Shown: positions 3,848-44,700 of the stretch, piece by piece
Numbering within the stretch: position 1 is the first letter of the stretch
How the letters are laid out: every line of letters begins with the position of its first letter
Source: Elusimicrobiota bacterium
Lineage (GTDB): Bacteria; Elusimicrobiota; Elusimicrobia; UBA1565; UBA9628
NCBI GenBank assembly: GCA_016182905.1
Contig: JACPFR010000042.1
Span: forward strand, 1 to 62,175
Direction of reading: 5' to 3'
Length of the DNA: 62,175 nt
Position numbers and translations under genes: made by a program
The notes under the pieces: generated by a model
The model's database searches: none
What the model was told of the DNA's origin: nothing
The model's input: the letters and a program-made list of their open reading frames with translations, nothing else

Positions 3848-3874
3848 AGGGGCCGCTCCGGGCAGTTTTGTTGC

Positions 3875-3880
3875 TTAGTT
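3875..3880 (+). promoter_or_regulatory. Extended -10-like TGC-TTAGTT before start
   Basis: TGC directly precedes TTAGTT, and 6 bases separate it from the ATG at 3887. The layout matches TGC-TAAGAT before the gene at 7760. The hexamer is weaker than the others in the window. Confidence 0.3.
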
Positions 3881-3886
3881 GTCGGC

Positions 3887-4039: not shown

Positions 4040-4055
4040 GCCCCCCAGGGGACCC

Positions 4056-7320: not shown

Positions 7321-7329
7321 GGAGGCTCC

Positions 7330-7686: not shown

Positions 7687-7747
7687 GTGAAACCTCCGCA
7701 ATCCCTATGGACTTCGCAACACTACGGCCTCCAGGCCGGAACGTTGC

Positions 7748-7753
7748 TAAGAT
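7748..7753 (+). promoter_or_regulatory. Extended -10 TGC-TAAGAT, 6 bases before start
   Basis: TGC directly followed by TAAGAT is an extended -10 motif. Six bases separate it from the ATG at 7760 (nine from the second ATG), which predicts a leaderless or near-leaderless mRNA. No -35 needed or seen. Confidence 0.5.
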
Positions 7754-7759
7754 ACGGTC

Positions 7760-8536: not shown

Positions 8537-8597
8537 CGTCGTCCGCCGCGGCCGGTTCTCATCCGCGCCCCAAATGACTCGCGCGCCAAAAGTGTTG

Positions 8598-8603
8598 TAG
8601 GAT
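8598..8603 (+). promoter_or_regulatory. -10-like TAGGAT with a leadered start
   Basis: TAGGAT would start RNA about 28-30 bases before the ATG at 8639, leaving room for CGGAG just upstream of the ATG. This gene therefore looks like a normal leadered mRNA, in contrast to the leaderless pattern at its neighbours. Confidence 0.35.
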
Positions 8604-8638
8604 TGCCGTGCGCAATCCCCGGTCATAACGGAGCTCCC

Positions 8639-9325
8639 ATGAACACTCTTTGGTCCGACATCGAAGCCGTCATCGAGCAGAAGTCCCTCCTCAAGCACCC
8701 CTTCTACCAGGCCTGGACCGCCGGCACGCTGACGCGGGAAGACCTCGCGCACTACTCCCGGCAGTACTACCAGCAGGAAGCCCGCTTCCCGCGCTACGTC
8801 AGCGCCGTGCACTCGAACACCCCCGACTTGAAGACGCGCCAGATGCTCCTCGAGAACCTGACGCACGAGGAAGCCGGCGCGGAGAACCATCCCGAGCTGT
8901 GGCTGCGCTTCGCGCAGGCCGTCGGCGCCGATCGCGCCTCGGTCCTCGGCGCCGAGGCCCACGCCGGCACGGCGAAGTGCGTGGCGGCCTTCGACCGCCT
9001 GTCCCGCGGATCGTGGCAGGCCGGCCTGGCCGCCCTGTACGCCTACGAGGCGCAGCAGCCCGCCGTCGCGAAGACGAAGATCGAGGGCCTGAAGTCGAAG
9101 TACGGACTGGACTCGAAGGACGCCCTGGGCTTCTTCTCGGTCCACGAGACCATGGACGCGTGGCACTCCGCGTCGGAGAAGCAGGTCCTCGTCGAGCAGC
9201 TGGAGAACGATCCCGCGCTCGGCGCCGAGCTCAAGGCCGCCGTGTCGGACGCCTGCGACGCGCTCAACGCCCTGCTCGACGGCGTCTGCGAGGCGCGCGG
9301 CATCATGGCCTGCGCGGCCGCCTGA
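8639..9325 (+). CDS. CADD-family putative folate (pABA) biosynthesis protein
   Basis: A 228-residue all-helical protein of the TenA/PqqC-like CADD group. Chlamydial CADD is reported to be a self-sacrificing metalloenzyme making p-aminobenzoate. Aligned by eye with that protein, the metal ligands and modified residues I remember are present: Tyr23 (HPFYQAW), Glu77, His84 (HEEAGAENHPELW), Glu137, Lys147 and His169 (FSVHETMD). The ATG at 8639 fits the family start and has GGAG upstream; the TTG at 8603 would add 12 odd residues. Standalone gene. A role in folate supply is inferred. Confidence 0.8.
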   Translation: MNTLWSDIEAVIEQKSLLKHPFYQAWTAGTLTREDLAHYSRQYYQQEARFPRYVSAVHSNTPDLKTRQMLLENLTHEEAGAENHPELWLRFAQAVGADRASVLGAEAHAGTAKCVAAFDRLSRGSWQAGLAALYAYEAQQPAVAKTKIEGLKSKYGLDSKDALGFFSVHETMDAWHSASEKQVLVEQLENDPALGAELKAAVSDACDALNALLDGVCEARGIMACAAA

Positions 9326-25229: not shown

Positions 25230-27761
25230 ATGAAGATTTCCCCGCGCCGCGCCCTGTCCATCCTCCTGACCGCCGCCCTCCTCCTGGGCGCCGTGCCCCC
25301 GGAGGCCTCGGCGCAGGTCGTCCGCGTCGTCTCGGGACCGACGGGCTCCATGCCGGTCTCGCCCGCGGTCGGCCCGGCCTCCGGGATGACGATGGCCCCC
25401 GCCCTCGGGATCGGCGCCGCCAGCCTCAACGGGACTCTCGCCGCTCCGTCCATCGCCCCCTCTCCCCTCGCGACCCCGACGGCCGTCTCCGCCGCCGCCC
25501 CCGTCGCCCCCGTCGCCGCCGCGCCGGTCGCCGCCGCCCCCGCTCTCGCCGTCTCCGTCCGCGCTGCCGCCTCCGAGGACGCCCCGAAGCTCCCCAACGC
25601 CCCCTCGGCCGCCGCCCCGGTCGAGAAGAAGACCTGGACCCAGCGCCTCTCCTCGCTCATCGGCCGCAAGACCGCTCCCGCCGCGACGCCCGCCGCCGAG
25701 ACGGTGAAGGTCGACGCGGACAAGCTGTTCGACGGCGCGGCCGAGACCGAAGCCTCCACCGAGGGCAAGCCCGTCTCCGCCGGCGACATCAAGCTCACGC
25801 ACGCGAACCTCAAGGCCGCCCTGTCGGCCAAGCTCACCGCCCACAAGACCCTCTCCGCCGCCAAGCGCGCCGCGACCGTCGACGAGTTCGGCGGCCCGCT
25901 CACCGAGCCGATGACCTTCCGCCGGCGCGTCGGCTACGGCCTCAAGCAGGGCCTCAACCTCGTCGGCCTCGGCGCCATCCTCGAGGTCACGCTCCGGCCC
26001 CTCCTCGACGTCTTCCCGTGGCCGCAGTACATGTCGGACGCGACCTTGAGCGGCTTCGGCCGCGTCGCCCTCCTCGCCAAGTACGGCCCCAACGAGATCG
26101 TCGAGGGCCTGGCCACCTCCCCGGCGACCTTCCTCGGCCTCCAGATCCCGATGGCGGTCGCTATGGAAGAGGTCGCCTACCGCCTCCTCGGCTTCGGCCT
26201 CATCTTCCTCGTCCTCGCCGCGGTCAAGCCGTTCACGCGTTGGATCTCCTCGATGATCGAGAGCCTCCCCGACGCGGCCGGCGTCGTCGGCGGCGCCAAG
26301 CGCGTGCTGAAGGCCGGAGAGTGGCTGTCCCACCTCGCCTTCCCCATCGCCGCGGTCCTGTCCTCCTTCAGCTTCGCCGCCGCCCACTTCGCGACCTGGG
26401 GCTTCAGCCCGTTCGTCCTCGCCCTCAACGTCATCCTCGGCCTGTTCCTGGCGCACACCGCCTACCGCAGCCGCAGCCTGACCTCGCCGGTCGTCGCCCA
26501 CCTGATCTTCAACCTCGTCACGATCGGCGGCGTCTTCCTCGCGCTGGCCTACTCCCCCTTCGCCGGCGCCGCGTTCGCCGTCATCGCCGGCCTGCTCGGC
26601 GCGTCCTCCCTCCTGCACGACTGGCTGACGCGCCGCAAGGAGCGCGCCTTCCGCATGAAGCACGGGGCCAAGGCCCTCGTCGCCGTCATGATGCTCGGCG
26701 GCCTCCTGTCCGTCTGGAACGACCCGACGCAGACCCGCCCCAACGAGGCCGTCTCCCGCGCCGCCATCGAGCAGGTGCAGAACAAGACCGAGGTCGCCCC
26801 CGCTCCCGCCGTCGCCGCGGCGCCGGCGGCCGACGCCGCCGCCGTCGAGTCCCGCGAGGCGATGGTCGCCCGCGTCAAAGGCTCCGTCGTGAACGTGATC
26901 GTGCGCACGCCCCGAGGCATGGGCACCGGCTCCGGCTTCATCCTGACCCCCGACGGCGTCTTCATCACCAACGCCCACGTCGTCGGCTCCCGCCGGCCCG
27001 GCCAGCTCGTCGAGGCGCGCATCCCCGGCGTGCAGGGCGTGATCAAGGCCAAGGTCCTCGCCGTCAACCACGACAAGGACCTCGCCATCGTCCAGCTCGC
27101 CCCCCGCGCCGACGGCAAGCCCTGGCCCGTCGTCAAGCTCGCCTCCTCCGCCCCCCGCGAGGGCGAGGACGTCACCGCCACCGGCTACCCGCGCGGCCTC
27201 CCCTTCACCGTGAGCGCCGGCGTCGTCAGCGGCATGGACGGCCGCGGCAACATGTACGTCAAGCACCTGCAGACCGACGCCGCCATCAACCCCGGCAACT
27301 CCGGCGGCCCCCTCTTCAACGCCCGCGGCGAGGTGGTCGGCGTCAACACGCAGATCTACACGCAGAGCGGCGGCTCCGACGGCCTCGGCTTCTCGATCAT
27401 GGCCCCCGAGGTGGCGCACGTGATGGCGCAGTACGCCAAGACGGGCAACATCGGCACCGCCTCGCTCGGCATCATCGCCAACCTCTCCGACCCGATGGCC
27501 CCCGACGCCGGCCTCGAGATCGAGTACATCCGCCACGGCTCCGCCGCCGAGAAGGCCGGCCTCAAGCGCGGGGACCTGATCATCGGCGTCGGCGAGGCGA
27601 CCATCTCCGAGGGCGGCCAGGAGGCCGCCGGCCACGTCGCGGCCGTCCTCTCCAAGATGATCCCCGGCCAGAAGACGACGATCACCGTCCTGCGCGGCGA
27701 CGAGCCCGTTCAGCTCGAGCTCACCGCCGACATGAAAGTCACCAAGGCTCCGAGCCACTAA
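25230..27761 (+). CDS. CPBP intramembrane protease fused to HtrA-type serine protease
   Basis: An 843-residue fusion. Residues 1-28 are a signal peptide, 29-160 an Ala/Pro/Val tract, and 161-170 is VDADKLFDGA, shared with the giant Bat protein. Residues about 230-500 form a CPBP (Abi) membrane protease: EEVAYR at 313-318, FAAAHF and HLIFN. Residues about 550-843 are HtrA-like: His583 (TNAHVV), Asp617 (HDKDLAIVQL), Ser691 (NPGNSGGPL), then a PDZ domain (SAAEKAGLKRGDLIIGV). Both catalytic sets look intact. It would couple cleavage inside the membrane with a periplasmic protease for envelope quality control or signalling; this is inference. Confidence 0.85.
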   Translation: MKISPRRALSILLTAALLLGAVPPEASAQVVRVVSGPTGSMPVSPAVGPASGMTMAPALGIGAASLNGTLAAPSIAPSPLATPTAVSAAAPVAPVAAAPVAAAPALAVSVRAAASEDAPKLPNAPSAAAPVEKKTWTQRLSSLIGRKTAPAATPAAETVKVDADKLFDGAAETEASTEGKPVSAGDIKLTHANLKAALSAKLTAHKTLSAAKRAATVDEFGGPLTEPMTFRRRVGYGLKQGLNLVGLGAILEVTLRPLLDVFPWPQYMSDATLSGFGRVALLAKYGPNEIVEGLATSPATFLGLQIPMAVAMEEVAYRLLGFGLIFLVLAAVKPFTRWISSMIESLPDAAGVVGGAKRVLKAGEWLSHLAFPIAAVLSSFSFAAAHFATWGFSPFVLALNVILGLFLAHTAYRSRSLTSPVVAHLIFNLVTIGGVFLALAYSPFAGAAFAVIAGLLGASSLLHDWLTRRKERAFRMKHGAKALVAVMMLGGLLSVWNDPTQTRPNEAVSRAAIEQVQNKTEVAPAPAVAAAPAADAAAVESREAMVARVKGSVVNVIVRTPRGMGTGSGFILTPDGVFITNAHVVGSRRPGQLVEARIPGVQGVIKAKVLAVNHDKDLAIVQLAPRADGKPWPVVKLASSAPREGEDVTATGYPRGLPFTVSAGVVSGMDGRGNMYVKHLQTDAAINPGNSGGPLFNARGEVVGVNTQIYTQSGGSDGLGFSIMAPEVAHVMAQYAKTGNIGTASLGIIANLSDPMAPDAGLEIEYIRHGSAAEKAGLKRGDLIIGVGEATISEGGQEAAGHVAAVLSKMIPGQKTTITVLRGDEPVQLELTADMKVTKAPSH

Positions 27762-28068: not shown

Positions 28069-28608
28069 ATGATTCGAAACTTATGGCTCGCGGCGTTGCT
28101 CCTTCTCCCTCTCTCGGCGCGCGCGGCCGAGGATCAGTACGCCTCTCTGAAGCCGCTCATGGGCACCTGGCTCGTGGACCGAGACTGCAGGATCTATCGC
28201 GACAAGGTCCTCGTCGTCTTCTCACGCCTGCCCAAGACCGTCCTTGTCGAGTTCCGCAGCCCGGGCAAGTCCGAGGCGAGCTTCGGCAAGGCCGACATCG
28301 TCGCCACCGGCGAGGAGGACCACTACCGCGCGGTCACCGTCCTGCCGGGCAACCCGGTCCTCAAGGCGCTGGGCATCTCCTCGGTCAGCGGGAGCGTGAA
28401 CGTCTCCACGGAAGAAGAAGACGATGAGGACTCCTTGCCGAACAACTACATCACCAGCAGCTCGAAGGTCTCCGTGCTCTCGAGCCTGCTCACCATACGG
28501 CTACGCGAGAAGTACAAGAAGGGGACCTTCATCTTCAACGTCGAGTCGCCCATGGGCAAGCAGACCTGCCGAGGCTCGGGCGTGAAGCGGCCGGCCGCGA
28601 AGAAGTAG
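28069..28608 (+). CDS. Secreted protein of unknown function
   Basis: A 179-residue protein with a signal peptide (LWLAALLLLPLSARA). The mature protein starts EDQYASLKPLMGTWLVDRDC and continues with alternating strands, somewhat like lipocalin-type 'GTW' barrels. It includes an acidic stretch EEEDDED and ends KKGTFIFNVESPMGKQTCRGSG. Two Cys could form a disulfide. No certain family. TATCGT lies 6 bases before the ATG. Confidence 0.6.
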   Translation: MIRNLWLAALLLLPLSARAAEDQYASLKPLMGTWLVDRDCRIYRDKVLVVFSRLPKTVLVEFRSPGKSEASFGKADIVATGEEDHYRAVTVLPGNPVLKALGISSVSGSVNVSTEEEDDEDSLPNNYITSSSKVSVLSSLLTIRLREKYKKGTFIFNVESPMGKQTCRGSGVKRPAAKK

Positions 28609-28614
28609 CCTGGC

Positions 28615-28640
28615 GGGCCGGCCGATGGTTAGGCCGGCCC
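28615..28640 (+). terminator. GC-rich hairpin after secreted protein gene
   Basis: GGGCCGGCC and GGCCGGCCC pair perfectly around an 8-base loop, starting 6 bases after the stop at 28608. There is no T-tract, so termination would need Rho or be weak. Confidence 0.45.
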
Positions 28641-28733
28641 CGGGTCACGGCGTCCCTTCCTGTATATAGTCGACCACGATGGTGATGATCTTCCTGACGG
28701 TGTCGTTGCAGGAGCGGAAATCTCCAGCAAATC

Positions 28734-28755
28734 GGGGTTCGAGGGATCGAACCCC
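28734..28755. repeat. Stem-loop GGGGTTCGA / TCGAACCCC
   Basis: Nine-base perfect arms with loop GGGA. The arms look like a tRNA T-arm sequence, but no tRNA surrounds them. Lies in the AT-richer spacer with the paired dyads. Confidence 0.4.
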
Positions 28756-28800
28756 CGAATGAAGGGGTCGATGTTTCCCAGAAATGCACCGTTGGGGAGG

Positions 28801-28847
28801 TATACCGGGAATCCCGGTATATATAAATACTACCGGGATTCCCGGTA
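28801..28847. promoter_or_regulatory. Two copies of a CCGGGA-W-TCCCGG dyad
   Basis: Copy 1 (28801-28821) has 10-base arms starting TATACCGGGA around a single A; copy 2 (28831-28847) has 8-base arms TACCGGGA around a single T. The copies are reverse complements, with centres 28 bases apart. A 14-base palindrome TTAAATCGATTTAA follows at 28859-28872, overlapping the stop of the next minus-strand gene. It looks like a double operator or a small repeat element; the bound protein is unknown. Confidence 0.55.
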
Positions 28848-28868
28848 TAAATAAGCGTTTAAATCGAT

Positions 28869-29243
28869 TTAACGGGCTGGCTCGCGCGCGGCAGGGTCGC
28901 GCCACAGCTTCCAGGTACGCCATAGGCCCATCAGCGCGACGGCCCCGAAGCCCGCCGTCATCGCCGCCGCCTCCCGGCTCTTTCCGATCGATCCCGCGTT
29001 CTGGGCCACGCCCGCCAGGCCGAGGCCGGCGTTGCCGCCCGTCGCGATGGCCTGCACCGCGAAGCTCTCCCCCTTCGAGTTGCGCAGGTCGCCGGGGAGC
29101 CACAGCTTGCCGGTCGCGAGCGGGGCGGCCGGGGCCCGGGCGAAGCGCGGGCGGACGTTGCCGTAAAGATCCAGGTCGAGCTTGCCGGCGCAAGCCGGAC
29201 CGGCCAGGAACGCCGCCGCGACGACCAGGCTTAAACGGGCCAT
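28869..29243 (-). CDS. Small secreted or membrane protein
   Basis: A 124-residue protein with a signal peptide (MARLSLVVAAAFLAGPACA), a short polar middle (LDLDLYGNVRPRF) and a C-terminal hydrophobic helix (AAMTAGFGAVALMGLWRTW) followed by basic residues. Not recognised; similar in style to the small protein at 7330-7686 (signal, one or two helices, AGN-type glycine stretch). TAAACT lies 5 bases before the ATG. Confidence 0.55.
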   Translation of the reverse strand: MARLSLVVAAAFLAGPACAGKLDLDLYGNVRPRFARAPAAPLATGKLWLPGDLRNSKGESFAVQAIATGGNAGLGLAGVAQNAGSIGKSREAAAMTAGFGAVALMGLWRTWKLWRDPAAREPAR

Positions 29244-29248
29244 GCCTT

Positions 29249-29254
29249 AGTTTA
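29249..29254 (-). promoter_or_regulatory. -10-like TAAACT, 5 bases before start
   Basis: Same hexamer as before the fusion protease gene, here 5 bases from the ATG at 29243. Leaderless pattern. Confidence 0.4.
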
Positions 29255-29296
29255 CGCCGCGCGGCGGCGCCTGTCGAGGGCCCTCGCGCGGCGGTC

Positions 29297-29338
29297 TTGA
29301 CTCAAAGCCAATTGGCTATTACACTATAGCCATATGGC
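29297..29338 (+). promoter_or_regulatory. Toxin-antitoxin promoter with three-part dyad operator
   Basis: TTGACT (29297-29302), a 17-base spacer and TACACT (29320-29325) form the best sigma-70-type promoter in the window, with RNA start expected at or next to the ATG (29334). The promoter is woven into symmetry: palindromes GCCAATTGGC (29307-29316) and GCCATATGGC (29329-29338) flank TATTACACTATA, and TGGCTAT/ATAGCCA mirror around the -10. This is a typical autoregulation site for an Xre-type antitoxin. Confidence 0.75.
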
Positions 29339-29783
29339 TACTACTCGAAAGCCGGCGCGCGGCCGGCCCCAGCATTCCGTGATCGGCGAAGCCCCCGAAA
29401 AGGGCGCGCACGCGACCGCGGATGCGGTGGACCGCATCCGGGGAGGCTTCCGCTGGGCGGATGTCAGCCTCTACCAGGAATCCTTCCGCATCAAGGACAA
29501 GATGTTCGCGAGGATCATCGGGGTCAGCGACCGGACTTTGACGAGAACCCGGCGGAACAAGGCCTTCCTCGACCCGGTGGCCAGCGACAGGTTTTACCGG
29601 ACGGCGAAGGTGCTGCGGCTCGCGGCGGACGTATTCGAGGATCTGGAGCGGGCCGTTTCCTGGCTTCAGCGCGAACAGCCGGGACTCGGTGGGCAGATCC
29701 CCCTCACGCTCCTCGACACCGAGCCGGGGACGCATGCGGTGGAGACCTTGCTGACCCAGCTCGAGTACGGCGTGCTCCCTTGA
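29334..29783 (+). CDS. Xre/MbcA/ParS-type antitoxin
   Basis: A 149-residue protein. The middle (about residues 45-95, YQESFRIKDKMFARIIGVSDRTLTRTRR) is a helix-turn-helix segment, and residues 80-149 (FYRTAKVLRLAADVFED ... AVETLLTQLEYGVLP) fit the ParS/MbcA C-terminal toxin-binding domain. It should bind and neutralise the RES toxin encoded next and repress its own promoter through the flanking palindromes. The basic N-terminus (MATTRKPARGRP) may help contact DNA. Toxin start TTG overlaps its stop. Confidence 0.85.
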   Translation: MATTRKPARGRPQHSVIGEAPEKGAHATADAVDRIRGGFRWADVSLYQESFRIKDKMFARIIGVSDRTLTRTRRNKAFLDPVASDRFYRTAKVLRLAADVFEDLERAVSWLQREQPGLGGQIPLTLLDTEPGTHAVETLLTQLEYGVLP

Positions 29784-30247
29784 TCCGGGCCTGGCGCATC
29801 GACAAAGCCGCTCGCTCCAAGGCCGACTCGTTCTCGGGTGAGGGCGGGCGGCTGGTCGCGGGGCGGTGGAACAGCAAAGGACAGGCGGTCGTCTACGCGG
29901 CCTCGACGCTGTCGCTGGCGGCTCTGGAGAAATTCGTGCATCTGGGGGCGGAGGGTTCCGCCATCGCCTTCGTCAGCTATGAGATTCTCATTCCTTCCAC
30001 CGTCAGGACGGCCGAAGTGAAGCGGGCCGCGGTACCGGGGGATTGGCGGGAGCAGCCGGCGCCGGCGTCGACGCAGAAAATAGGGGACGAGTGGATACGG
30101 GGGATGAGGAGCGCGGTGTTGAGGGTCCCCTCCGTTGTCACGCCGGACGAATTCAACCTGATTTTGAATCCCGCGCATCCGGATTTCGTGAAGATTAAGG
30201 TCTCCGCGCCGCGCGCCTACAGCTTCGATTCGCGAATGTGGAAGTAG
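29780..30247 (+). CDS. RES-domain toxin (NAD-degrading type)
   Basis: A 155-residue RES-family protein: MIRAWRIDKAARSKADSFSG at the start, then RLVAGRWNSKGQAVVYAA, LAALEKFVHLG and a late Ser in AVLRVPSVVTPDEFN, i.e. the Arg, Tyr, Glu and Ser positions of the family. RES toxins with Xre/ParS antitoxins are known to break down NAD+. TTG start coupled to the antitoxin stop (TTGA). The pair sits at the left edge of the AT-richer island. Confidence 0.85.
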   Translation: MIRAWRIDKAARSKADSFSGEGGRLVAGRWNSKGQAVVYAASTLSLAALEKFVHLGAEGSAIAFVSYEILIPSTVRTAEVKRAAVPGDWREQPAPASTQKIGDEWIRGMRSAVLRVPSVVTPDEFNLILNPAHPDFVKIKVSAPRAYSFDSRMWK

Positions 30248-30349
30248 GCAGGCAGCGGGACCCAGCTACCGCGATGAGCAAATCAGTTTCCACTGCGCCC
30301 GGACGCATTAGAGCCGGCAACCAATGACTTAAAGCAAACTGATTAGGCG

Positions 30350-31306
30350 TCAGAATTCCTTGTAGAAAAAAGGCGCGGTTGGCTTAACCGGACTAGATGT
30401 TATTCGCAGCGTTGAATAGCCGCGTTTGAGCGATATTTCAATGTGCACCTTGTCGACGTGTGCTTTCAATTTCTTGTGGCGAGTTAGGGCTCTCAAAACT
30501 CGCCGCCAATTGTGAACTCCAGAGACGACCTTTTTTCCAATGAAATGGAATCCCCTGCCGCTCTTCAGTAATACGCCGCCAAACGGTTTCAGGAGGGCTT
30601 CGACTGCCGGGTTGACGGCATCGATGTCGATCATTATCAGATGATCGTCGTCATACTGATTGACACGACTGTTTAACCCAACGACATAGTCTTCCGAGCG
30701 ATTTACCTTAAGCCGTTTCAGCATGCGGACAGCTTCACTGGCGAGCCTTTTGATTCCGAATATTTCAAGATAGAAAGGCGGCTGCCAATATGTCAGCCGC
30801 GAGTGGTGGGAATAGGTCTTCGGGCAGTAGATGTCGAATGAGAAATCCTTAATAAGGCCAGGATTGTCTGCCAGCAGACTTTTTAACAGATCGGCGGCTT
30901 CAACGACAGGAACGATCCGCTGGCAGAATTTCACATAAGACGTTAGCGTGCGGAGCTGCTTCTTGAGATCATCCGGATCAGGGGCATGGGTAGTGCGATA
31001 GTTGAATTCATTCCGCTGCACATGGAGTTCAGTGTGGAGCTTCACATAACGGCGCGGGAAATCATGCTTGCGCCCATACGTTTTATGAAGCTGTGTCTGC
31101 ACGTGTTCGTGGCTTGGGCTCGCTTTGATGAGAGAGCAAAGCAACGACTGTGAAATATAAAAACATGTGAAATACAGGTGCACGACTGCTTCTCGATAGA
31201 GGCCGGCCTCGATCAGCTTGTCTGCCGCGTCACGCTCGGAAGTTCCAAGAGCCATCAGGGTGCTGGCTCTCTTTTTTTGATGCGGAGTATATGTGAGTGG
31301 CTTCAT
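30350..31306 (-). CDS. HEPN domain fused to AEP-primase-like domain
   Basis: A 318-residue protein. Residues 10-150 look like a HEPN domain of the COG1895 type (GLYREAVVHLYFTCFYISQSLLCSLI, HEHVQTQLHKTYGRKHDFP, RNEFNYRTTH). The C-terminal third resembles an archaeo-eukaryotic primase core: LIMIDIDAVNP (D-x-D), KSGRGFHFIGKK (SGxGxH) and RGYSTLRITSSPVKP. No such fusion is known to me. The gene is AT-richer than its surroundings and follows another helical gene by 75 bases in the same direction, as defence pairs often do. Role in defence is inference. Confidence 0.5.
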   Translation of the reverse strand: MKPLTYTPHQKKRASTLMALGTSERDAADKLIEAGLYREAVVHLYFTCFYISQSLLCSLIKASPSHEHVQTQLHKTYGRKHDFPRRYVKLHTELHVQRNEFNYRTTHAPDPDDLKKQLRTLTSYVKFCQRIVPVVEAADLLKSLLADNPGLIKDFSFDIYCPKTYSHHSRLTYWQPPFYLEIFGIKRLASEAVRMLKRLKVNRSEDYVVGLNSRVNQYDDDHLIMIDIDAVNPAVEALLKPFGGVLLKSGRGFHFIGKKVVSGVHNWRRVLRALTRHKKLKAHVDKVHIEISLKRGYSTLRITSSPVKPTAPFFYKEF

Positions 31307-31380
31307 ATTCTTGCGGGATACTTAACGATACGCCATGCCACGCGCGCTACTGGAACTCCACAAAGAAAGCACGCTTCGCC

Positions 31381-32268
31381 CTACGGCACATCGAATAAGA
31401 TTCCCCAGTCAGCATCTGGATCAAATTCGCCGGCCTCTTCGTCTTTGGAACGCCAAGAACCAAAAAAGTCCTCCACGTGCCCTTCCGACATGATGTGCAT
31501 GATGTTAGTCGGCAACGGATGCTTCCGCCGCAAATAGTCCATCCGATAATGGTCTTCTTTGTCGTAAAACGTAAAGCCATCAATCTCCACATCGCAAATC
31601 TGGTCAATTACATCGGCCTTCAGAAAGAATTTCCCGCTTGCGTTTTTAAGAAACGAGGTTTCAATTAGCTCAGATTGCAGCTGAGCAATTTCCGCAAACA
31701 ACCTGCACATGTCGATCACATCAATATCTGCCTTTGGGAAGGAGTCGCCGCTCGATGGCGCTCGATACGAAATCAGCTCTCGATAAGCTTTTAAGTGCGT
31801 GATGTGCTGTTTGGTTTTACCCGCCAGTTTCCTGTTAAATTGAGCGAAGATGTCGCTGGCAATATTTATTGTCTTCGTATGCGTCGTCAATAATAATCCG
31901 CCGTTATCCCACGGGATGCTTGGATTGGTGAGCAGAATGGAGCGAAGTGAATTAAGAACCGTATAGTAGTCGAGATACGAGACCACAGCCCGCAAATTTT
32001 TTGTCTTTGCGAACTCGAGACTCTGGGCCATAACAGATGAAGCGAGCACCATTTTCGCCGCGAAATAGATTCGCGCAATCCATTCCGAGTTCTTGTCATC
32101 ATCCCAGCTTTTCGAAATCGGGGCAAACCTGCTTAATAGCTGCTGGCATGTTTTGGTGACAGTAGCTTCCATGCAGTGTTTCGGAATGGAACGGAACTCA
32201 TAGGACCAAGTTCTCCCAGCGAAATTGGTGCGGGTTTCGAGGAGTTTGCGAACCTTTATATGGGTCAT
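31381..32268 (-). CDS. HEPN-like helical protein of unknown function
   Basis: A 295-residue mostly helical protein. YFAAKMVLASSVMAQSLEFA, VSYLDYYTVLNSLRSILL and THLKAYRELISYRAP have the rhythm of HEPN-like domains; the C-terminus is acidic (SKDEEAGEFDPDADWGILF). No catalytic motif stands out. The ATG follows GTTTAAT, the right end of the attC-like hairpin, by 2 bases, as in integron cassettes. Probably works with the HEPN-primase-like gene downstream. AT-rich, acquired DNA. Confidence 0.5.
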   Translation of the reverse strand: MTHIKVRKLLETRTNFAGRTWSYEFRSIPKHCMEATVTKTCQQLLSRFAPISKSWDDDKNSEWIARIYFAAKMVLASSVMAQSLEFAKTKNLRAVVSYLDYYTVLNSLRSILLTNPSIPWDNGGLLLTTHTKTINIASDIFAQFNRKLAGKTKQHITHLKAYRELISYRAPSSGDSFPKADIDVIDMCRLFAEIAQLQSELIETSFLKNASGKFFLKADVIDQICDVEIDGFTFYDKEDHYRMDYLRRKHPLPTNIMHIMSEGHVEDFFGSWRSKDEEAGEFDPDADWGILFDVP

Positions 32269-32270
32269 AG

Positions 32271-32349
32271 ATTAAACGTAGGCTGAACGGCGGCGGCTAC
32301 CCGCTATCCAGCCTAGTCGGGCCGCCGTCCGTTCAAGCCGATGTTATGC
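32271..32349 (-). repeat. attC-like site
   Basis: A 79-base imperfect hairpin. Left arm GGCTGAACGG-CGGCGGC (32281-32297) pairs with 32321-32339, which carries two extra unpaired bases; a second small stem lies in the loop. The ends are ATTAAAC (32271-32277) and GTTATGC (32343-32349). Read on the minus strand this gives GCATAAC ... GGCTTGAAC ... GTTCAGCC ... GTTTAAT, i.e. R'', L'', L', R' of an integron attC with bulges on the R'' side. The R' ends right before the next gene's ATG. Confidence 0.6.
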
Positions 32350-32755
32350 GCCGAAGACAGGCGCCCTTAAGCCATTTTATAGTCGGACCAGCACGCGAAA
32401 AATCGCGCACCAACGGCTAGCGGGACTGGTCCTGTACGATCGGGGTGCGCCAAACTAACAATTCTTGGCGATCCAATCTTCGACCTTACGTATTGCGTCG
32501 GAAAGCTGTTTGTAGATGTATGCCAATAATGCGCTTGTGCCCATAGCTGCGCCGGCGCCTGCGATTAATCCAAAGCCGGTCGAGGCCAACAACGCGGCAA
32601 CCACGGAGATTGCTGCGACAGCAGCGAACGAAAGGATCCAAAAGTTGTCCATGTACCACTTCAGATCCCGAAGTTTCTTGTTTGCATCAGCGCAGTCTTT
32701 GATTGGCATCATTCCTCCTTTTTGTAGTCCGACAATATTCCTACGCACGCATAAC
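32277..32755 (-). mobile_element. Putative integron gene cassette
   Basis: Runs from GTTATGCG (minus strand, 32755-32748) to the R' box of the attC-like site. The first eight bases of this unit are exactly complementary to the R'' box of its own attC-like end (CGCATAAC), as expected because R' and R'' come from the same site before insertion. It carries one small membrane-protein gene. No integrase is in the window, so this would be a cassette or a remnant away from an integrase. Confidence 0.5.
32455..32712 (-). CDS. Small two-helix membrane protein (cassette-encoded)
   Basis: An 85-residue protein: polar N-terminus with KDCADANKKLRDLKWYMDN, then two hydrophobic helices (FWILSFAAVAAISVVAALLA and FGLIAGAGAAMGTSALLAY) and a short amphipathic tail ending IAKNC. 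Looks like a small membrane effector or holin-like protein; no family recognised. AAGGAGG directly precedes a double ATG, so 32712 or 32709 may be used. AT-rich relative to neighbours. Confidence 0.6.
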   Translation of the reverse strand: MMPIKDCADANKKLRDLKWYMDNFWILSFAAVAAISVVAALLASTGFGLIAGAGAAMGTSALLAYIYKQLSDAIRKVEDWIAKNC

Positions 32756-32942
32756 CTTGAATTCACTCGACCGGCCTAATTCGGTCACGGCTTACCGCTT
32801 GAAGTGCGGCCGACCGTTCGCCGGATTATAAGACGGAAATCCCGCCTCCGCCACCCCCGAAACAAAGCAAACGAAGCATGGCCAGGTAGGGCTAATTTAG
32901 GAGAGAAATGACCGGTCTAAACCAAACGCGGAGTTCGATCGC
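32756..32942. other. AT-richer spacer with imperfect hairpin
   Basis: Between the putative cassette start and the metallophosphoesterase stop. It holds an imperfect fold (CCGGC/GCCGG with an inner CGGTC...GACCG) next to GTTATGCG that could be the worn attC of a previous cassette. No gene is supported. Confidence 0.35.
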
Positions 32943-34250
32943 CTAGCGCAACGGAAAGGACGATCCATCGGCCGCATGAACGGTCTCGACGATCCCGCTA
33001 GGCCCCGCTTCGACCGACAGCCAGTGATGCAGGCGCGTCTTGACCGGCCCGGGGTACAGCGGTGAGCCCCCGCCGCCGGTGAGCACGTACTTCACGCCCC
33101 CGCGCTCGAGGACCCCCAGACCGTGGATGTGTCCCATGTACACGCGCTGGACCTTGTTCGCGCTCATCAGGCGCATGAACTCGGCGCTGCCTTCCTTGAA
33201 TCCCCCCGCGCCCTTCATCGAGCCCCAGTCGGTCCACTCGGAGAGAGGCGCCGGCGGTATGTGCGTGAAGACGACCGTCGGGACTTCCGGATCCAAAAGC
33301 CCCACGAGCCACGCGAGCTGCACCGGCGTCACGCGCCCCGCGCTCGAGTCGAGGACGATGAACCGCCGCCCGCCCCGGTCGAAGGCGTAGTCCGGGCTGC
33401 CGAACGCCGCCCGATACACGCGGTCGTTGGTGATCCCGTGCGGCTTATGCCGGTCATGGTTTCCGATGGCCGTCAGATAAGGCGTCTTCGGCCCCACGGA
33501 GAACAGCCCGCGGACGAACGACCAGAAGTTGAGCACGGTCCCGCGGCTGACCATGTCCCCCAGTTGGAAGATGAAGTCCGCGCCCGAACGGTCGGCGCGC
33601 GCGAGGAGCTTCCAGAAGACCCCGGGCGTGTTGAACAAGGTCCGGGAGAACCAGAACCGCCCCGGCTCCGCGTCCCCGATCACGGCAAAGCGGAAGGTTT
33701 CCCCCACAGAACGCGGCGAAGCCGCGAGCTTCGTGAGCTGCTCATCCGTCCGCCATTCCCGGGCCTGATGGCGCAGCGACTCAAGCTCCCGGGTCAGACG
33801 CACCGGCGCGGGAGCCACGACCAGGTGTCCGCGCCCCACCGCGTCCTCGATGGTGGAGGCGCGCGGCGACCGACCGTCCCACGGTATGCCCTCGGGAGCG
33901 CCCAGCACGCGCAGATCGAGGCCCGCCGACGGAGAGAACGGAAGGCCGTTGTGATGGCTGAAGCCGGTCTGACGGCTGCCGTGGATGACGACGGGCTCCC
34001 CCGTGCGCACGGCGAGGGCCTTGGCCGCCTCGAGATGCGCGGGAGTGACGCCCGGACCCGGGACGCCGAGCACCCGCGTGCCGAGCAACGAAGGCGCCAG
34101 CGGGAAGTCGACGATCGCCGGGGCGGAGAGGACCGGCGAGGAGAGCGCCGCGACGCGCGGAGCCGAAGGCAACGCCCGCGGCACGACGACCTGAGCCGAC
34201 GCCGCGCCGGCGGCCAGGAGCAGGGCCGCCGGCGCGAACACGACGGTCAT
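32943..34250 (-). CDS. Secreted metallophosphoesterase with Ala/Pro-rich N-terminus
   Basis: A 435-residue protein. Residues 1-20 are a signal peptide, 21-60 an Ser/Ala/Pro/Val tract like those of the neighbouring genes. Residues 70-120 (GEPVVIHGSRQTG, then LDLRVLG) look like a degenerate nucleotidyltransferase-type segment. From about 185 it is a calcineurin-like phosphoesterase: FAVIGDAEPG, FQLGDMVSRG, AIGNHDRH, FTHIPP and MGHIHGLGV, all metal-binding blocks present. Substrate unknown. It starts 3 bases after the moxR-like stop, so it is third in the Bat/MoxR operon. Confidence 0.8.
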   Translation of the reverse strand: MTVVFAPAALLLAAGAASAQVVVPRALPSAPRVAALSSPVLSAPAIVDFPLAPSLLGTRVLGVPGPGVTPAHLEAAKALAVRTGEPVVIHGSRQTGFSHHNGLPFSPSAGLDLRVLGAPEGIPWDGRSPRASTIEDAVGRGHLVVAPAPVRLTRELESLRHQAREWRTDEQLTKLAASPRSVGETFRFAVIGDAEPGRFWFSRTLFNTPGVFWKLLARADRSGADFIFQLGDMVSRGTVLNFWSFVRGLFSVGPKTPYLTAIGNHDRHKPHGITNDRVYRAAFGSPDYAFDRGGRRFIVLDSSAGRVTPVQLAWLVGLLDPEVPTVVFTHIPPAPLSEWTDWGSMKGAGGFKEGSAEFMRLMSANKVQRVYMGHIHGLGVLERGGVKYVLTGGGGSPLYPGPVKTRLHHWLSVEAGPSGIVETVHAADGSSFPLR

Positions 34251-35758: not shown

Positions 35759-38700
35759 TTAGGGCTGGGACGGCTGCTTGGCTTTGGGATGGAAGGCCAG
35801 CTCGAGGCTCTCGAGCGGGTCTCCCTCGGTGGAGATCATGACGGGCGTGAGGCGCGAGGCGGCGAAGGCGGCCTCGACGGCGGCCTCGCGGCGATTGACG
35901 GCGGCGGCGGCCTCGGCGCGTCCGGCGCGCGAGGAGGTGTCGAGCATGCGGGTCGCCCCCGTCTCGGCGTCGACGACGGGCAGCAGGCCCACGTCGGGCA
36001 GGGGGCCCAGCTCGGCCGGGTCGGTCACGCGGATGGCGCGCACGTCGTGGCGCGAGGCGATGGCGCCGAGCGCGTCCTTGAAGTCGGGGGCTATGAAGTC
36101 GGAGAGGACGGCGACCATGGCGCGCGAGCCGAGCAGCTTGCCCGCGGCCTCGAGACCCGGCTTCAGGTCGGTGGCCTTGCCCGTCGGCTCGCCCTTGAGG
36201 ATGGCGTCGACGATGGTCATCGCGTGGCGGGAGCCGCCGCGCGCGGGGATGACCTGTTCGACGCGGTCGGAGACGAGGACGAGGCCGACGCGGACGTTGG
36301 AGTGGGCGGCGGCCAAGGCGAGGACCGCGGCGGCGTCCTCGATGGCGGCGCGCTTGTCGGTCCCGCGCGTGCCGAAGCGGCCGGAGCGGCTGACGTCGAC
36401 GACGAGCATGAGCGGCATGTCGCGCTCGAGCTCGAACTTCTTCGCGTAGAGCTCGTCTTTCTTGGCGGAGGTCTTCCAGTCGATCTCGCGCATGTCCTCG
36501 CCCTGGTAGGGACGGGCCTCGGCGAAGTCCGTGCCGCCGGCGCCGATGAAGCGGGAGCGGAAGTTCCCGCCGTTGACGGCGGTGGCCATGCGGCGGGCGA
36601 CGAGCTCGATGCGGCGGTGGCGCGCGATCACGGCGCCGGGGACGGACTCGCGCGCGGCGGCTTCGCTCTCCTCGGCCTTCATGGCGGGCAGCATCTTCCA
36701 GACCAGGTACGCGGCGGCGAGGCCGATGACGGTGAAGATGAGGATCGGGGCGAGGCCCAAGGCGGGGAGCGCGGCCAGCGCCAGCGGCGCGAAGGCGTAG
36801 GTCTTGCCGGACTTCGCGTCGAAGGCGGCCAAGGCGCGGTCGGCGGCGGCCAGCGCCGCCTCCACCGTCTTCTTCTCCTCGTCGGTGAGCGCGCGGCGCG
36901 TCGTGCCGTCGCTCTCCCAGCCCTGGCCGCTCGCCAGTATGCCGGAGAGGAAGCCGCGCAGCTTCACGATCTCGGCGCGGGTGTAGACCTGGCGGTGATC
37001 GGAAGGGCCGTTGCCGGAGCCGGCGTCCATCAGGCCGAGGGCGCGGAGCTGCTCGTTGAACACGGCGCCGGGGAAGACCTGATAGCCCTTCTGGAGGGGG
37101 TCGTTGACGAGCTCGGCGGAGACCTCGCCGGGGGTGTCGCCGGAGAGGACGCCGGACGCCGTCGCGGCGGCCTCGAGCAGGGGCAGGAGGCGGGCGGCGC
37201 GCTCGGAAGCGGCGCGCTGCTCGGCCGTCGGCTTCTTGACCTTCGCGGCGGCCGCGGCGATGCCGGCGCGCAGCTCGCGGTAGTGGCGCAGCTTGAACTC
37301 GCCGCGCCAGGAGTCGTCGTCCTCGCGGACGCCGGAGGCGATCAGCGCCTTGTTGAGCGTCGCGAACCGCTTCTCGGCGTCCTCGCCCAAGGACTGCGCG
37401 GTCTTCTCCGCGTCCTCGGCGACGGACTCGAGGAGCTCCTTGGCGCGGGGCGTCTTGAGCGCCGAGACCAAGGCGGACAGCTCGGCCTCCTCGGAGGAGG
37501 TGCCCTTGACCGCGAGCCGGATGGAGCCGAGGACGCCCGCGGCGTCGGCGGCGTCGCCGGGGCGCGCGGCGAGGAGCGCGAACATCGTCTCCTGGGCCTT
37601 GAGCGCGAAGGCGGCGTCGCCCTTATGCTTCTCGAGCTCGATCGAGAGGCGCGCCAGCGCCAGGGCTTCCTGGCCCGGGCGGCTCACGGCGCCGAGCAGG
37701 TCCGCCGCGACGGGAGCGGCGGCGACGCCGAAGCGGGCGGCCAGGATCGCGTCGACGCGGTCGAGCGCGTTGGCGAGGTAGACCTTCTCGGCGAGCTTGA
37801 GCTCGCGGGCTTCCTTGCCGAGGCCGGCGTTGGCCTTCGCCGCGCCGGCGAGCCAGGTCCGGACCGCCTCGAGCTCGGCGCGGGTGTAGGTCTGGCGGTA
37901 GTCGGAGAGCGTGTTGCCGGCGCCCGGCATCAGGCCGGCGGCGCGCAGGGCCTCGTTGAACTCGGAGCCGGGGAACAGGCGCCAGCCGGCGAGCAGGACC
38001 ACGTTGGCCTCGTCGGCGGCGAGCTCCCCCGCGGTGTCGCCCGCCGGGGCGCCCGCCAGGGCCGCGAGCTTCGCGTAGCGGGCCAAGGTCATCGCGTCCT
38101 CGCCGGTCAGGGCCTCACCGACGGCCCGGAAGTGGCGCAGCTTGACGTCGGGGCGCCAGGCGCTCTCGCTCTCGCGCACGCCGGCGGCGGCGAGCTTGGC
38201 CTTGAGGCCCGGGGTCGCGGCCTCGGCCTTCTCGGCGACCGCGTGCAGGCCGTCGACGGCGAGCTTGAGCGCGGCGGCCTGGAAGGCCGCGCCGTTGGGG
38301 GCCTTGAGCGCGACGGCGAGCGCGTCGAGGGCGGCGGCTTCCTGCGGCGTTCCCTTGAGGGCGGCGAAGACCTGGACCAGCAGGGCGGACGCGTCGGCGG
38401 CGTCGACCGGGCCCTGGGCGGCGCGGGCGAACAGGCGCGCCGACACCGAGACGGCGGTCGCGGGACTCGCGCCGGCCGTCAGCTCGCGCGACAGGCGCGC
38501 CAAGGCGAGCGACTCGTCGGCGATCGGCGAACCGGGCTGCGCGTCGGGATATATCCTGCGCTGCGCCGCGTCGAGGTCCTCGAGCGCGCCGGCCAGGTAG
38601 AGCTTCTCGGACCAGGTCAGGGCCCGAGCCTTGCCCTCGGAGTCCCAGCCGCTGCCGGAGCGGGCGATCGTCAGCAGCAGCTCGCGCAGCTTGGTCAGCT

Positions 38701-41700
38701 GGGCCGCGTCGAGCGCCTCGGGGTAGGCCAGCTGGCTCGACAGGTCGCCGGAGGCGGGGGCCAGGCCCGCCTCGCGCAGGGCGCGCAGGAAGGAATGCCC
38801 GGTGAACACGCCGTCGCCCTGCTTCAGGAGGGGGTAGAGCTGCTCGGCCGCGGCCTCGGGGGCGGTGCCGCCCTCCATCATGCCGGCCTTGACGCCGGCC
38901 TCGAGGCCCTGCTCGACGACCATGCCGGCGCGCTCGAGGAGCTCGCGCGCGGCGAAGTTCTCCTTCGTCGGGGCCTTCGCCGCGGGAGCGCCCAGCTCCT
39001 CGACGGCGGCCAGCAGGGCGCGCAGGTGGGCGAGCTTGTACACCTCGCGGTAGTTCTGGGTCGTGCTCGTGCCGCCGCCGTAGTAGCCGCCGAAGCGCCC
39101 GCCGTGGCCGTGGTAGTCGTCGTAGCCGTCGTAGCCGCCGCCGTAGGAGCTCTGGGTGTCGGGGAGCACGACGCCGTCCTTGACGAGGCGCTCGTGCAGG
39201 CCGGGGAAGACCTTCTCGGCGTCCTTGATAAGGTCGGTCGTCGCCTTCGCGACCAGGTAGCGGGCGGCGCCGGCGAGCGCCGCGGGCGCGCCGCCGTCGC
39301 CCTGCAAAGTCGAGGCGAGGTTGGCGAGCATCGCGACCATGGACGGCGGGGCCTGGACCTCCTGGTCCGGGGGCGTCTGCTTGTAGATCTCCAGGCGCGC
39401 CGCGTCGATCGCGCGCGCGTTGACGAGCGCCTTGTCGAGGAAGGACTTGGCCTTGACCAGGTCGGCCTCGCCCACGCCCGGCTCGGTCAGGCGGCGGAAG
39501 GCGAAGCTCGCCGTCCACATCTGGAGCGCCGGGTCGCCGGCGTGCTTGGCCTGCGCCGCCTCGAGGCCCTCGTAGAACTTGGCGCCCGCGTTGCGCGAGA
39601 GCTGGGCGTACAGCGCCCCCGCGGCCTGCTGCTGGACCTGCTTGTTCGGGCTCTTGAGCACGCGGAAGAGCTGGACGAAGGTCCGCTCGTTGCCGACCTC
39701 GACGCCGAGGACGACGAGCTTGACGAGCATCTGGGCCGAGGCGGCGTCGGCGCGCGACTGCGCGATCAGGGCGTCCATCGAGGCCCACAACAGGTCGCTC
39801 TCGCGCTCGATGAGGGCGCGCAGCATCGTGTTCTCGGCCTGCTGGTTGAGCGGGAGGACGCCGGAATGGCGGAAGATCGCGACCAGGATGTTGTCGGCCT
39901 TCGGGTCCGGCGACTCGCGCAGGATGGTCAGCGCGCGCTCGAAGTCGTCGCCGGCGGTCTTCGGCGACTCGTGCCAGCGCTTGAGGGCGGGGATGACCTC
40001 CTCGGTGATGCGCGCGTCGACGTAGCGGTCGGAGAAGACGAACAGGTCCTCGGCGTAGAATAGCCGCATCGCGGCCTCGGCCGCCGCCCGCTGCTCGACG
40101 CGGAAGTTCATCGTCCCGACCGTGGAGACGCCGGTGATCACGATCATCAGGCTGAGCACCGCGACCGTGGCACCGCGCTTGAGGCGCGACCAGAGGCCGG
40201 GAGCCTTCGCGAGAGGCTTCGGGGCCTCGAAGGCGACCGGTTGTCCCGCGGCGACGGCGTTGAGGGCCGAGAGGCGGGCCTCGGCGTCGGAGTGGGCCAT
40301 CCAGGAGATCTGCGCCTTGCGCAGGCCCATGCGCGCGGCGATCGGGGCCAACGGCTCCAGGCGCAGACGCGCGGTGCGGCGCAAGGCGGTCAGGACTTTT
40401 TCGAGGGTTTCCGCCGACGCGCCGGAAAGATAAACGGCGGTGAGCTTCTCGCGCCACAAGGCCTCGTCGTGGGAGGCGAGTGCAATCATCGTCTCGCGCA
40501 GGGGCTCCTTGGCGTCCTGCCAGCCCCTGACGAAGGCGGTCAGGCGGCGCTCGTCGGCCTCGCGCAGGTCGTACAGGTGGATCAGGTCGGCGGAGACGCC
40601 TTTCTCGACGAAGCCGCGGCGGCTCTGCCACCACTCGCGCACGCTCCGGGTGATCTTGCCGCCGCTCCAGGAGTCGGCGGCGAGGTAGGCGGCGACGACC
40701 GTCGCCAGCGCGGCGAAGGGCAGTATCTGGGGCCAGGCCCCGAGAGGGATGAGCGCCGCGCCGAGCAGGCCCGCCGCGCCGGGGCCTTTCTTCTTATCCT
40801 TCGCCTGGCCGCGCTTGAGGAGGGAACGGCCGGGCAGCACGAGGTCGAGGATGAGCATCAGCAGCGCGGGCCAGAGCAGGTACACGCCGACGGGGCTCGG
40901 GGACTTGATCAGGTCGCCCTTCTGGCCCTTCTCGAGGCGGGAGACCTCGCTTAAGATGTTGTCGATCGAGGCCTTGCCGCCGGCGGCGAAGTAGGCGCCG
41001 CCGGTGCGCTCGGCGAGCTGGCGCAGCGGGGCTTCGTTGAGACGCGTGATCGCGGGCTGGCCGGTCTTGGCGTCGATCAGGTACTCGGTGCCGGTCCCAT
41101 CGGCCGTCGGCATCAGGATCTTCGTGCCCGCGGGGTCGCCGACGCCGATCGCGTAGACGGTGACGCCGTGCTCGGAGGCGGCGGCGATCGCGGCCGAGAT
41201 CTCGCCGGCGGTCACGTCGCCGTCGGAGATCACGATCATGATGCGCTGGCGGTCGCCGAGCTTCTTGGCCGTCTCGAAATGCTCGGCGGCGTACTTGATC
41301 CCGGAGGCGAGGTCGGAGCCCTCGCCGATGCCGCGGGCCTCGACGTCGAGCCGGTTGATCTTGAACTCGAAGTTGCCGTAGTCGATGGAGATCGGAGACG
41401 CCGTGCGCGACTTGCCGGCGAAGACGACGAGGCCGACCCGGTCCGTGCCCTGCAGGCGGGTGATGAACTCGTTGAGCTCCTTCTGCGTCTTCTCCGCGCG
41501 GCCGTCCTCGGCGTACATCATGCTGTGGGAGCCGTCGACGGTGACGACGATGTCCTTGCCGCCGAAGTTGACGCGCTCGTCGACCATGCCGCCTCTAGGG
41601 TCGCCGGCGGCCAGGCCGATCAGGCCCGCGGCCGCCAGAGCGAGCGCCGACTTGCCGAGGAAGCGGCGCGCCCCCCACCAGGAGGAGAAGGTCTTGGGCG

Positions 41701-44700
41701 CGGCGCCGGGGCTCAAGCGCTTGGCCGCGTCCAGGCGCTTCTTGATCCCCCAGGCGACGAGCAGGATCAGGACGGGCAGGCCGATGCCGACGACCCACAG
41801 GAACAGGGACGAGGAGAACACCAGGCCCTGGCCGGCGAAGGCGAGCGGCAAAGCGCCGATGCCCCACACGCCGGAGCCCTTGCGGGTCATGCCCTTGCGC
41901 GCGGCGTCCTTCTCGCCCTTCTCCTGGTCGCCGAGCGCCTCGCCGAGCTTGTCGGCGCCTTCCTTGGGATCGCCGGGCTTGGCCTGGGGTTTTCCATCGC
42001 CCGGCTTGCCGTCTCCCGGTTTCCCGTCCCCGGGCTTGCCGTCGCCCGGTTTGCCGTCGCCCGGTTTGCCGTCGCCGGGTTTGCCGTCGCCCGGCTTGCC
42101 GTCGCCGGGTTTTCCCTTCTGCTTGCCCGGCTTGCCCTTCTTGGAGTCCTTGGAATCCTTCTGCTGTTCCTGCTGCTCCTTCTGCTGCTGCTTGAGGGCC
42201 TCCAGGTTCCACTTCGCGTCCATGTTGGTCGCGTCGCGGCGCAGGGCTTCCTTGTATAGCTCGATCGCCTTCTCGCCGTCCTTGGCCATCAAAGCCGAGT
42301 TCGCGAGGTTGAAGAGGGTCTGGGACTGCTTCTTCGCGTCCGGCGTCAGGGAGAGGTACTTGGCCCAGGCCGCGTCGGCCTTCGCGTTCTCGCCGAGGCG
42401 CAGGTAGGCGTCGGCCATGTTGAAGTAGATCTCGGGAACGTCGGGGTGGCGCTCGACGGCCTCGCCGTACTTCTTGAGGGCCTCGGCGAAGCGGCCCTGG
42501 TTGTAGAGCCGGTTGCCCTCGATGACCTCGGCCGGGACCGCGGCGGTGACCGACTCGTGAGCCTCGGAGTGCGCCTGCGCCATGGTCATGGTGACGGCGG
42601 AGGGCGCCGTCCGGACCGCGTTCAGCGCGTCCATCGGCGCCTGATTGAGGGCCATCATGAACGCCAGGCCGTAGAGCGTGCGCAGCCGCGTGTTGGCGAG
42701 GGTCAGCTCGGCGCCGATGAGCAGGAAGGCGAGGAGTGCCAGCAGGCTCGTGTAGTCCTTGATCGAGACGGCGGAGACGATCTTGGCCGGGCTCTTCTCG
42801 AGGCGGGCGATCTCGAGCAGGACCTCACGCATCGCGTTCGCGTCGCCGGCGCGGTAGAACTTGGCGCCCGTCTTCTCCGCCACGCCGCGCAAGGTCGCCT
42901 CGTTGAAGGACTCGTTGGGCCCGGCGATGCCCACGCCGTAGACCTTGACGCCCAGGGAGGCGGCGATCTGCGCGGCGGCCTGCGGGTCGATGCCGGAGTT
43001 GGAGTCGCCGTCGGTGAAGAGCACGACGATCTTGGCGCGCTCCGGCTGCAGGATGGTCTTGAGCAGATCGGGGTGCTGCTTGGCGTAGGCGAGCGCGGCC
43101 GGCAGGCCCTGGTCGCGGAGCAGGCGCTGGACCTCGGCGGCGCGCGGGTCCTTCTTGCCGTCGAGCTCGAGCGCGTTGAGCTCGAGGAAGTGCGCGATCG
43201 CCGTCAGCATCGACTTGCCGATCGCCGTCGAGCCCGTCGTCTGCAGTTCCTTGAGATGCGAGATCAGCGCGTCGTAGTCGGTGGTCAGCTTGACGTCGAG
43301 GTAGGCCTCGTCGGAGAAGGTGACCATGCCGACGCGGTTCTCGGTGCCGCGGCGCTGCTCCTCGACGTAGCCCTTCACCGCGTCGCGCACGCCCTGGAGC
43401 TTGTCGCCGCTCATCGAGCCGGACAGGTCGATGGACACCATCGTGTCGGTCGACGGGACGAAGGTCTCGGTGCGCTCGGTGCCGATCATGGGCCGCGCGA
43501 GCGCGATGAGGATCAGGCCCACGGCGGCGTAGCGCAGCACGCGCGGCAGCCCGGCGAGGCGCTCGCGCAAGGTGCGCTTGGACGGCGTCTGGGCGGAGGA
43601 GGAGACGGCGAAGCGCGCGCCCTGGGCGCGGCTGCGCCACGACCACACGAGGTAGCCGAGGTACGGGATCAGCAGGAGCAGGACCCAGGGAGAGCCGAAG
43701 GTCAGGCCGGCCGCGCCGGGAAGCAAGGCCAGCATGCCGAGCATGCCGGCGCCCGGCGCCTTGGGCTTGCCCGCCTTGCCCGCGACGCTCGCGACGAGGG
43801 CCTGCAGGCGCTCGATCATGCGCCCGCGCTCGGCGGCGTCCGTCTCCGAGCCGGCGAAGCGCGCGGCCTCGGCTTGGGCCGCCAAGCGGGCGGCGACGCT
43901 CGCCTGACCCGCGTCGTAGAAGGACTTGCGCAGGTCGCGCTCGAGCGTGCGCGCGTCGCGCGCCGCCTTGGGCAGGCCGGCGAAGTCGACCATGAACCGC
44001 GTCAGGAGGTCCTGGTAGCGGGCATAGAAGGAAGCGGCGTCGAGGTCGGCGGACTCGGCTTTCAGGCGCGCCAGCTCGGTCTCGGTGACGGTGACGAGCG
44101 ACAGGCGCTGGGCGTCGAGCTTCGGGTACAAGCGGCGCGCCGCGACGAGGCGGTGCACGCCGACGAAGAGCAGGAGGCCGAGCGGGATCGCCGCCAGCCA
44201 CATCCAGTCCGGGCCGTTGGCGCGCTTGACGCCGACGATGTCGCGCAGGCCCTTCTGCTTCCAGTCCGGCGTGAGCACGGTCGCGACCTTGATCTCGGTC
44301 TTGGGCAGGACGATCTCGATGCCCTCGGGGTAGACGGCCGTCTCGCCGACGGCCACGACGGCGATGCCGCCCTCCAAAGTCAGCGTTCCGGACCCGAAAG
44401 GGATCGCCTCGTAGACGACGGTCTTGGTCTCGCCCGGCGCCAAGGTCAGCGGCGCCTCGGCGCCCTTGCCCTGGAGCTCGAGGTCCGCGGGCACCGCCTC
44501 CTGCAAAGACGAGCGCAGGTTGTGCAAGGTGACCGGCTTGTCCGAGGTATTGCGGAGCGTGATCGTCAGGTGGATGCGCTCGCCGACGGTCACGCCCTGG
44601 CGGTCGACGGACGCCTGAGCCTCGAGCGGGCGGGGCAGGACGACGCGGGCCGTGTCGGCGGCGGGCGCCGGGGCCGGAGCGGGGGCGGCTTGAGCCGGGG

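Follow-up and report, generated by a model that had tools for sequence, protein, structure and literature searches.

The DNA analysed here is the 62,175-nt contig JACPFR010000042.1 of an Elusimicrobiota bacterium (assembly GCA_016182905.1); the whole of this stretch is referred to as the window. The window is GC-rich (0.69) apart from a single dip at approximately 30–33 kb, where two genes lie on the minus strand, separated by 74 bp. One codes for a 318-aa protein that joins a HEPN domain to an AEP-primase-like core (GC 0.495), and the other codes for a 295-aa protein (GC 0.472). A first-pass annotation, made from the letters of the window, had described them as two AT-rich genes of the same orientation beside a toxin–antitoxin pair and an attC-like site, and each of these features was recovered in our analysis. 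The features of the locus are as follows.

28069–28608 (plus strand) and 32943–34250 (minus strand): conserved flanking genes
28609–32942 (no strand): variable stretch between the two conserved convergent genes, from comparison with the related genomes G218 and G182
29334–29783, plus strand: Xre/MbcA/ParS-type antitoxin gene (PF09722, E 7.6e-18; PF20432)
29780–30247, plus strand: RES-domain toxin gene (PF08808, E 6.9e-31)
30350–31306, minus strand: HEPN–AEP fusion gene, 318 aa (ORF list, Pfam, and relatives G206/L022, L021 and the broken G277/L013)
30392–30697, minus strand: AEP-like primase/polymerase core, residues 204–305 (PF24387)
30923–31234, minus strand: HEPN domain, residues 25–128 (PF05168), with R98-x4-Y103 instead of Rx4-6H
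31381–32268, minus strand: 295-aa gene, fold unassigned, mostly helical, the supposed partner (ORF list)
32271–32349, minus strand: integron attC site (R'' GCATAAC, extrahelical base in L'', unpaired spacer, R' GTTTAAT)
32277–32754, minus strand: integron gene cassette (sequence read directly)

The variable stretch is approximately 4.3 kb long and holds both the 318-aa and the 295-aa genes. Its two flanking genes nearly touch in G218 (about 80 bp apart), while in G182 different content stands beside each of them, which indicates that the stretch is an insertion hotspot. Genes that adjoin each other inside it therefore need not be partners. Neither the Rfam nor the tRNA scan detected anything in the insert. 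PADLOC returned no match for the 318-aa protein, the 295-aa protein or the small cassette protein at E-values up to 10, and PHROGs and NCBIfam gave no usable match either. A perfect 19-bp inverted repeat at 28801–28849, each arm of which contains the palindrome TACCGGGAWTCCCGGTA, has no other occurrence in the genome and lies within an approximately 247-bp stretch that is missing from G182. Two long ORFs elsewhere in the window were judged by eye. The first, a single 3220-aa ORF (35759–45421, minus strand), lies downstream of the gene for a MoxR-type ATPase. It seems to combine two von Willebrand-A modules with TPR repeats and a DUF58-like C-terminus, as though an entire Bat-type operon had been merged into one chain. 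An 843-aa ORF (25230–27761, plus strand) is an apparent fusion of a CAAX-protease-like membrane part with an HtrA-like protease carrying a PDZ domain.

The joining of a HEPN domain to an AEP-like core, proposed from the motifs MIDID, SGRGFH and RGYSTLRIT, was borne out: all three motifs are present in the 318-aa protein, and both Pfam domains score above their curated cut-offs, albeit barely (PF24387, E 3e-6, 27.5 bits against a cut-off of 27; PF05168, E 1.5e-4, 22.3 bits against 22). Both domains were also matched in all three intact members of the family. AEPs are defined by motifs I (hhhDhD/E), II (sxH), III (hD/E) and IV (Rh) (PMC5862659). The corresponding residues in the 318-aa protein are IMIDID (D227, D229), SGRGFH (H254), HVD (D285) and LR(I/V) (R301), so that the protein carries motifs I–III, the sequence criteria of the superfamily. 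Motifs I–IV are invariant among relatives that are 69–72% identical, and the combined pattern of motifs I, II and III is confined to copies of this family among the 922 reading frames of at least 150 aa in the sequences examined. Pfam found neither a reverse transcriptase (RT) nor a pol-beta MNT match in the protein, the polymerase part of which is AEP-like.

The HEPN domain shows the profile match and the family residues of the PF05168 superfamily. Its motif region reads R98-NEFN-Y103 in the window copy, and in the alignment no member of the family has a histidine at the right distance to form the RNase motif Rx4-6H. The R-x4-Y arrangement is common to this HEPN and to stand-alone PF05168 proteins of the same phylum, and PF05168 proteins in general often lack the histidine and cluster with restriction–modification (R-M) operons (PMC3710099). 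The residues for RNA cleavage seem to have been lost from the HEPN of the 318-aa protein. The protein as a whole is under strong purifying selection, given that the proportion of differing sites is near saturation at synonymous positions (0.79–0.96) and only 0.18–0.19 at non-synonymous ones; selection is strongest in the AEP part, which is the most conserved portion.

Structure prediction of both proteins, which the first-pass annotation had proposed as a check, was carried out and gave poor models that confirmed no fold. The AlphaFold2 model of the HEPN–AEP protein, built from three sequences, had a mean pLDDT of 45.8, and neither fold is therefore confirmed structurally. A PDB fold search with this model returned the HEPN structure 2hsb (E 0.11, probability 0.98, not significant). 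The order of strands and helices fits a palm/RRM-like fold, and the matches to RRM-like folds, which are weak, agree with the domain assignment, as does that to 2hsb, without being significant.

Searching 295 genomes of the phylum yielded two further copies of the fusion gene. The copy in G206 (L022) is intact and 72% identical to that of the window; the copy in G277 (L013) is approximately 70% identical and has been disrupted by a frameshift and, in its HEPN part, by an in-frame deletion. When 84,980 species genomes were scanned, the G206 record was recovered again, together with an intact copy, 69% identical, in a Planctomycetota MAG (L021). The domain layout is near-identical across different phyla. 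The evidence from genomic context rests on these four loci (window, G206, G277 and L021), of which G277 is broken. The viral contigs, phage records and plasmids searched contained no relative of the fusion. In particular, a scan of viral contigs with single sequences and both family alignments gave no relative of the 318-aa or the 295-aa protein, and among phage records the only matches, to Vibrio tail proteins (14% coverage), were due to chance.

The neighbours of the relatives agree with the mobile, defence-type setting that had been suggested for the window. In G206 (L012), the fusion gene directly adjoins, on its upstream side, the methylase gene of a type III-like R-M cluster (Res helicase, 3101–5836; Mod, 6970–9300) and, on its downstream side, an OLD-type ATPase–TOPRIM gene (AAA_15 + TOPRIM), after which comes DUF2130. 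A DNA methylase gene lies near the G277 copy, and the L021 copy is placed between a serine recombinase gene and genes for RmuC and an AAA_13 ATPase. The L021 locus also has a separate, strong HEPN gene (6999–7463; PF05168, E 3e-24) approximately 2.5 kb from the fusion gene. DNA similarity between the window and the other copies stops at the ORF boundaries, and the HEPN–AEP gene therefore moves alone. These comparisons indicate that the gene is spread horizontally, between phyla, in defence-type settings.

The 295-aa protein had been called HEPN-like, and this assignment found no confirmation. Pfam, PADLOC and NCBIfam gave no match for the protein, and its PHROGs match was no better than chance; hhalign comparison of its family with HEPN gave a probability of 1.4%, and the single-sequence structure model (pLDDT 34.9) was too poor for a fold search. 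The family (28–55% identity among members) has a conserved stretch, K-x2-R-E-x3-SYR-x-P, that appears to resemble the HEPN motif region only superficially. Its relatives are three single genes on Acinetobacter, Sphingobium and Rhizobium plasmids, none of which carries the HEPN–AEP gene. On the Sphingobium plasmid, a type IIG-like R-M gene lies upstream of the copy, and on that of Rhizobium an ABC-three-component system is nearby. No homologue was detected in the other 294 genomes of the phylum by a search that did recover the window copy, nor in the Planctomycetota L021 genome by a search that had no positive control of its own; E. coli genomes searched with the Acinetobacter relative likewise gave no match.

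The attC-like site of the first reading is a genuine attC. It folds far better than its shuffles (z −4.6), and a blind motif scan over 192 kb picked it as one of three sites, the others being C3:275–358 in the same genome and one in a Rhizobium record. Its R'' pairs with GTTATGC at 32755–32749, and the cassette therefore runs from 32754 to 32277; the TTATGC with which the cassette begins completes the R' that pairs with its own R''. The cassette ORF (32455–32709, given as 103 aa in the ORF list, which starts it further upstream, at a GTG at 32766) codes for a small membrane-type protein, and it is this ORF, and not the stretch with the 318-aa and 295-aa genes, that the sole attC of the insert ends. 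The genome encodes an intact integron integrase (TIGR02249, 433 bits; contig C12:16247–17188, L028 5950–7209), and no attC was found on the 17.8-kb contig that carries it. The site on contig C3 is 74% identical to the window attC and is directly followed by a 113-aa ORF of VOC/glyoxalase-type look (C3:275–738, L041), likely another cassette. The sequence is most simply explained by a single insertion of the small cassette ahead of the 295-aa gene. On the preferred reading, this gene and the cassette are independent passengers in the hotspot.

Taken together, we see an about even chance that the 318-aa gene codes for a stand-alone, horizontally spread defence-island polymerase or nucleotidyltransferase, composed of an AEP core and a HEPN domain without the RNase motif, and most likely AbiA-like. 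The HEPN domain would serve in dimer formation and/or nucleic-acid binding. When a phage or plasmid invades, the AEP core would add nucleotides, with a primer, a protein residue or the end of a nucleic acid as acceptor. The protein, for which we predict an anti-phage function, may act as a second line beside restriction systems. In AbiA, the HEPN domain is enzymatically inactive and mediates dimer formation, its removal abolishes polymerase activity, and this activity is required for protection (PMC11077055).

Several other explanations were weighed. The two-gene defence system of the first-pass annotation, in which the HEPN–AEP protein and an HEPN-like 295-aa protein would act together, is suggested by the shared strand, the close spacing and the similarly low GC of the genes, and by an R-x4-Y-R stretch in both products (RNEFNYR in the 318-aa and RELISYR in the 295-aa protein). 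We consider it very improbable, since the profile comparison between the two families was insignificant and the genes never co-occur in the other genomes searched: the 295-aa gene is absent from the three other genomes with the fusion, its relatives occur without the fusion, and homologues of the two, whose co-occurrence had been proposed as a test, were never found together outside the window. The R-x4-Y-R stretch was also tried as a sign of kinship between the proteins and rejected, the comparison being not significant. That both genes are integron cassettes set side by side by IntI is a reading we find improbable and have rejected. The 295-aa gene does have an attC upstream, whose crossover point is 9 bp away from the start codon, and IntI is encoded in the genome, but neither the 295-aa nor the 318-aa gene is followed by a closing attC (fold z 0.29 and −0.83; motif scan), the homologous fusion-gene copies are not at attC sites, and one insertion of the small cassette accounts for the single attC.

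The remaining alternatives concern the 318-aa protein itself. MNT modifies a tyrosine of HepT. The protein might be a one-chain toxin–antitoxin-like module, in which the AEP core controls the HEPN, by nucleotidylation or restraint, in the way that MNT controls HepT, and release yields an RNA-cutting toxin. The conserved Y103 adjoins R98 and recalls the modified tyrosine of HepT, and the HEPN belongs to a family that partners nucleotidyltransferases (PMC3710099). We nevertheless hold this to be quite unlikely, as the canonical Rx4-6H is missing in all members, the AEP core is not a pol-beta MNT, and HEPNs fused to nucleotidyltransferases, including those of published MNT–HEPN fusions, are mostly inactive (PMC3710099). 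It is also unlikely, if conceivable, that the gene is the remnant of a primase that served a mobile element in replication or repair, with the HEPN as its nucleic-acid-binding part and with no role in defence. Plasmids, viruses and other mobile elements do account for many bacterial AEPs (PMC5862659), and a serine recombinase gene lies near the L021 copy. Against this origin, the HEPN–AEP gene forms no operon with a helicase, Rep or integrase gene, the viral contigs and plasmids searched hold no homologue, and the neighbours are R-M and OLD genes instead.

For the preferred, AbiA-like polymerase, a bolder and rather doubtful extension is that HEPN–AEP proteins form a new class of defence polymerase, one of primase type that is dimerised by a dead HEPN and, upon infection, synthesises nucleic acid without a template or from a protein primer. 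Such a class would be to AEPs what the RT-based Abi and DRT systems are to RTs; the known defence-linked polymerases are mostly RT-like. A primase-type polymerase with a HEPN in R-M/OLD islands would suggest repeated origins for the combination of a palm polymerase with a dead HEPN. Both domains are already known, and no description of their fusion was found in the open-licence literature, including papers that treat both HEPN and archaeo-eukaryotic primase. The gene is a small, single-gene and easily testable candidate, and its analysis removes a false lead, in that the 295-aa neighbour is not its partner.

Among known systems, the stand-alone HEPN-T (PF05168) proteins near R-M operons share the HEPN family and the reported R-M neighbours (PMC3710099) with the 318-aa protein, whose HEPN is, unlike theirs, fused to an AEP core, a fusion not found in the literature searched. 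PrimPol and the AEPs of mobile elements (PrimPol-PV1 families, Prim-Pol clade) have all four AEP motifs in common with it. In contrast to them, the 318-aa protein has an N-terminal HEPN and no PriCT or helicase domain, and its setting is one of defence genes, not of replication genes. MntA–HepT resembles it in the coupling of HEPN to a nucleotide-adding enzyme in a defence context; however, the 318-aa protein belongs to the AEP and not the pol-beta superfamily, is a single polypeptide and lacks the canonical HEPN active site, and the adjacent 295-aa ORF is without a Pfam match. AbiA of Lactococcus, composed of an RT-like polymerase, a helical domain and HEPN, is, like the 318-aa protein, a palm polymerase fused to HEPN. 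The 318-aa protein differs from it in having an AEP core rather than an RT, an N-terminal HEPN and half the size, and in the absence of the Rx4-6H motif, which AbiA retains. AbiA is the closest working analogue and the nearest tested precedent of the HEPN–AEP protein.
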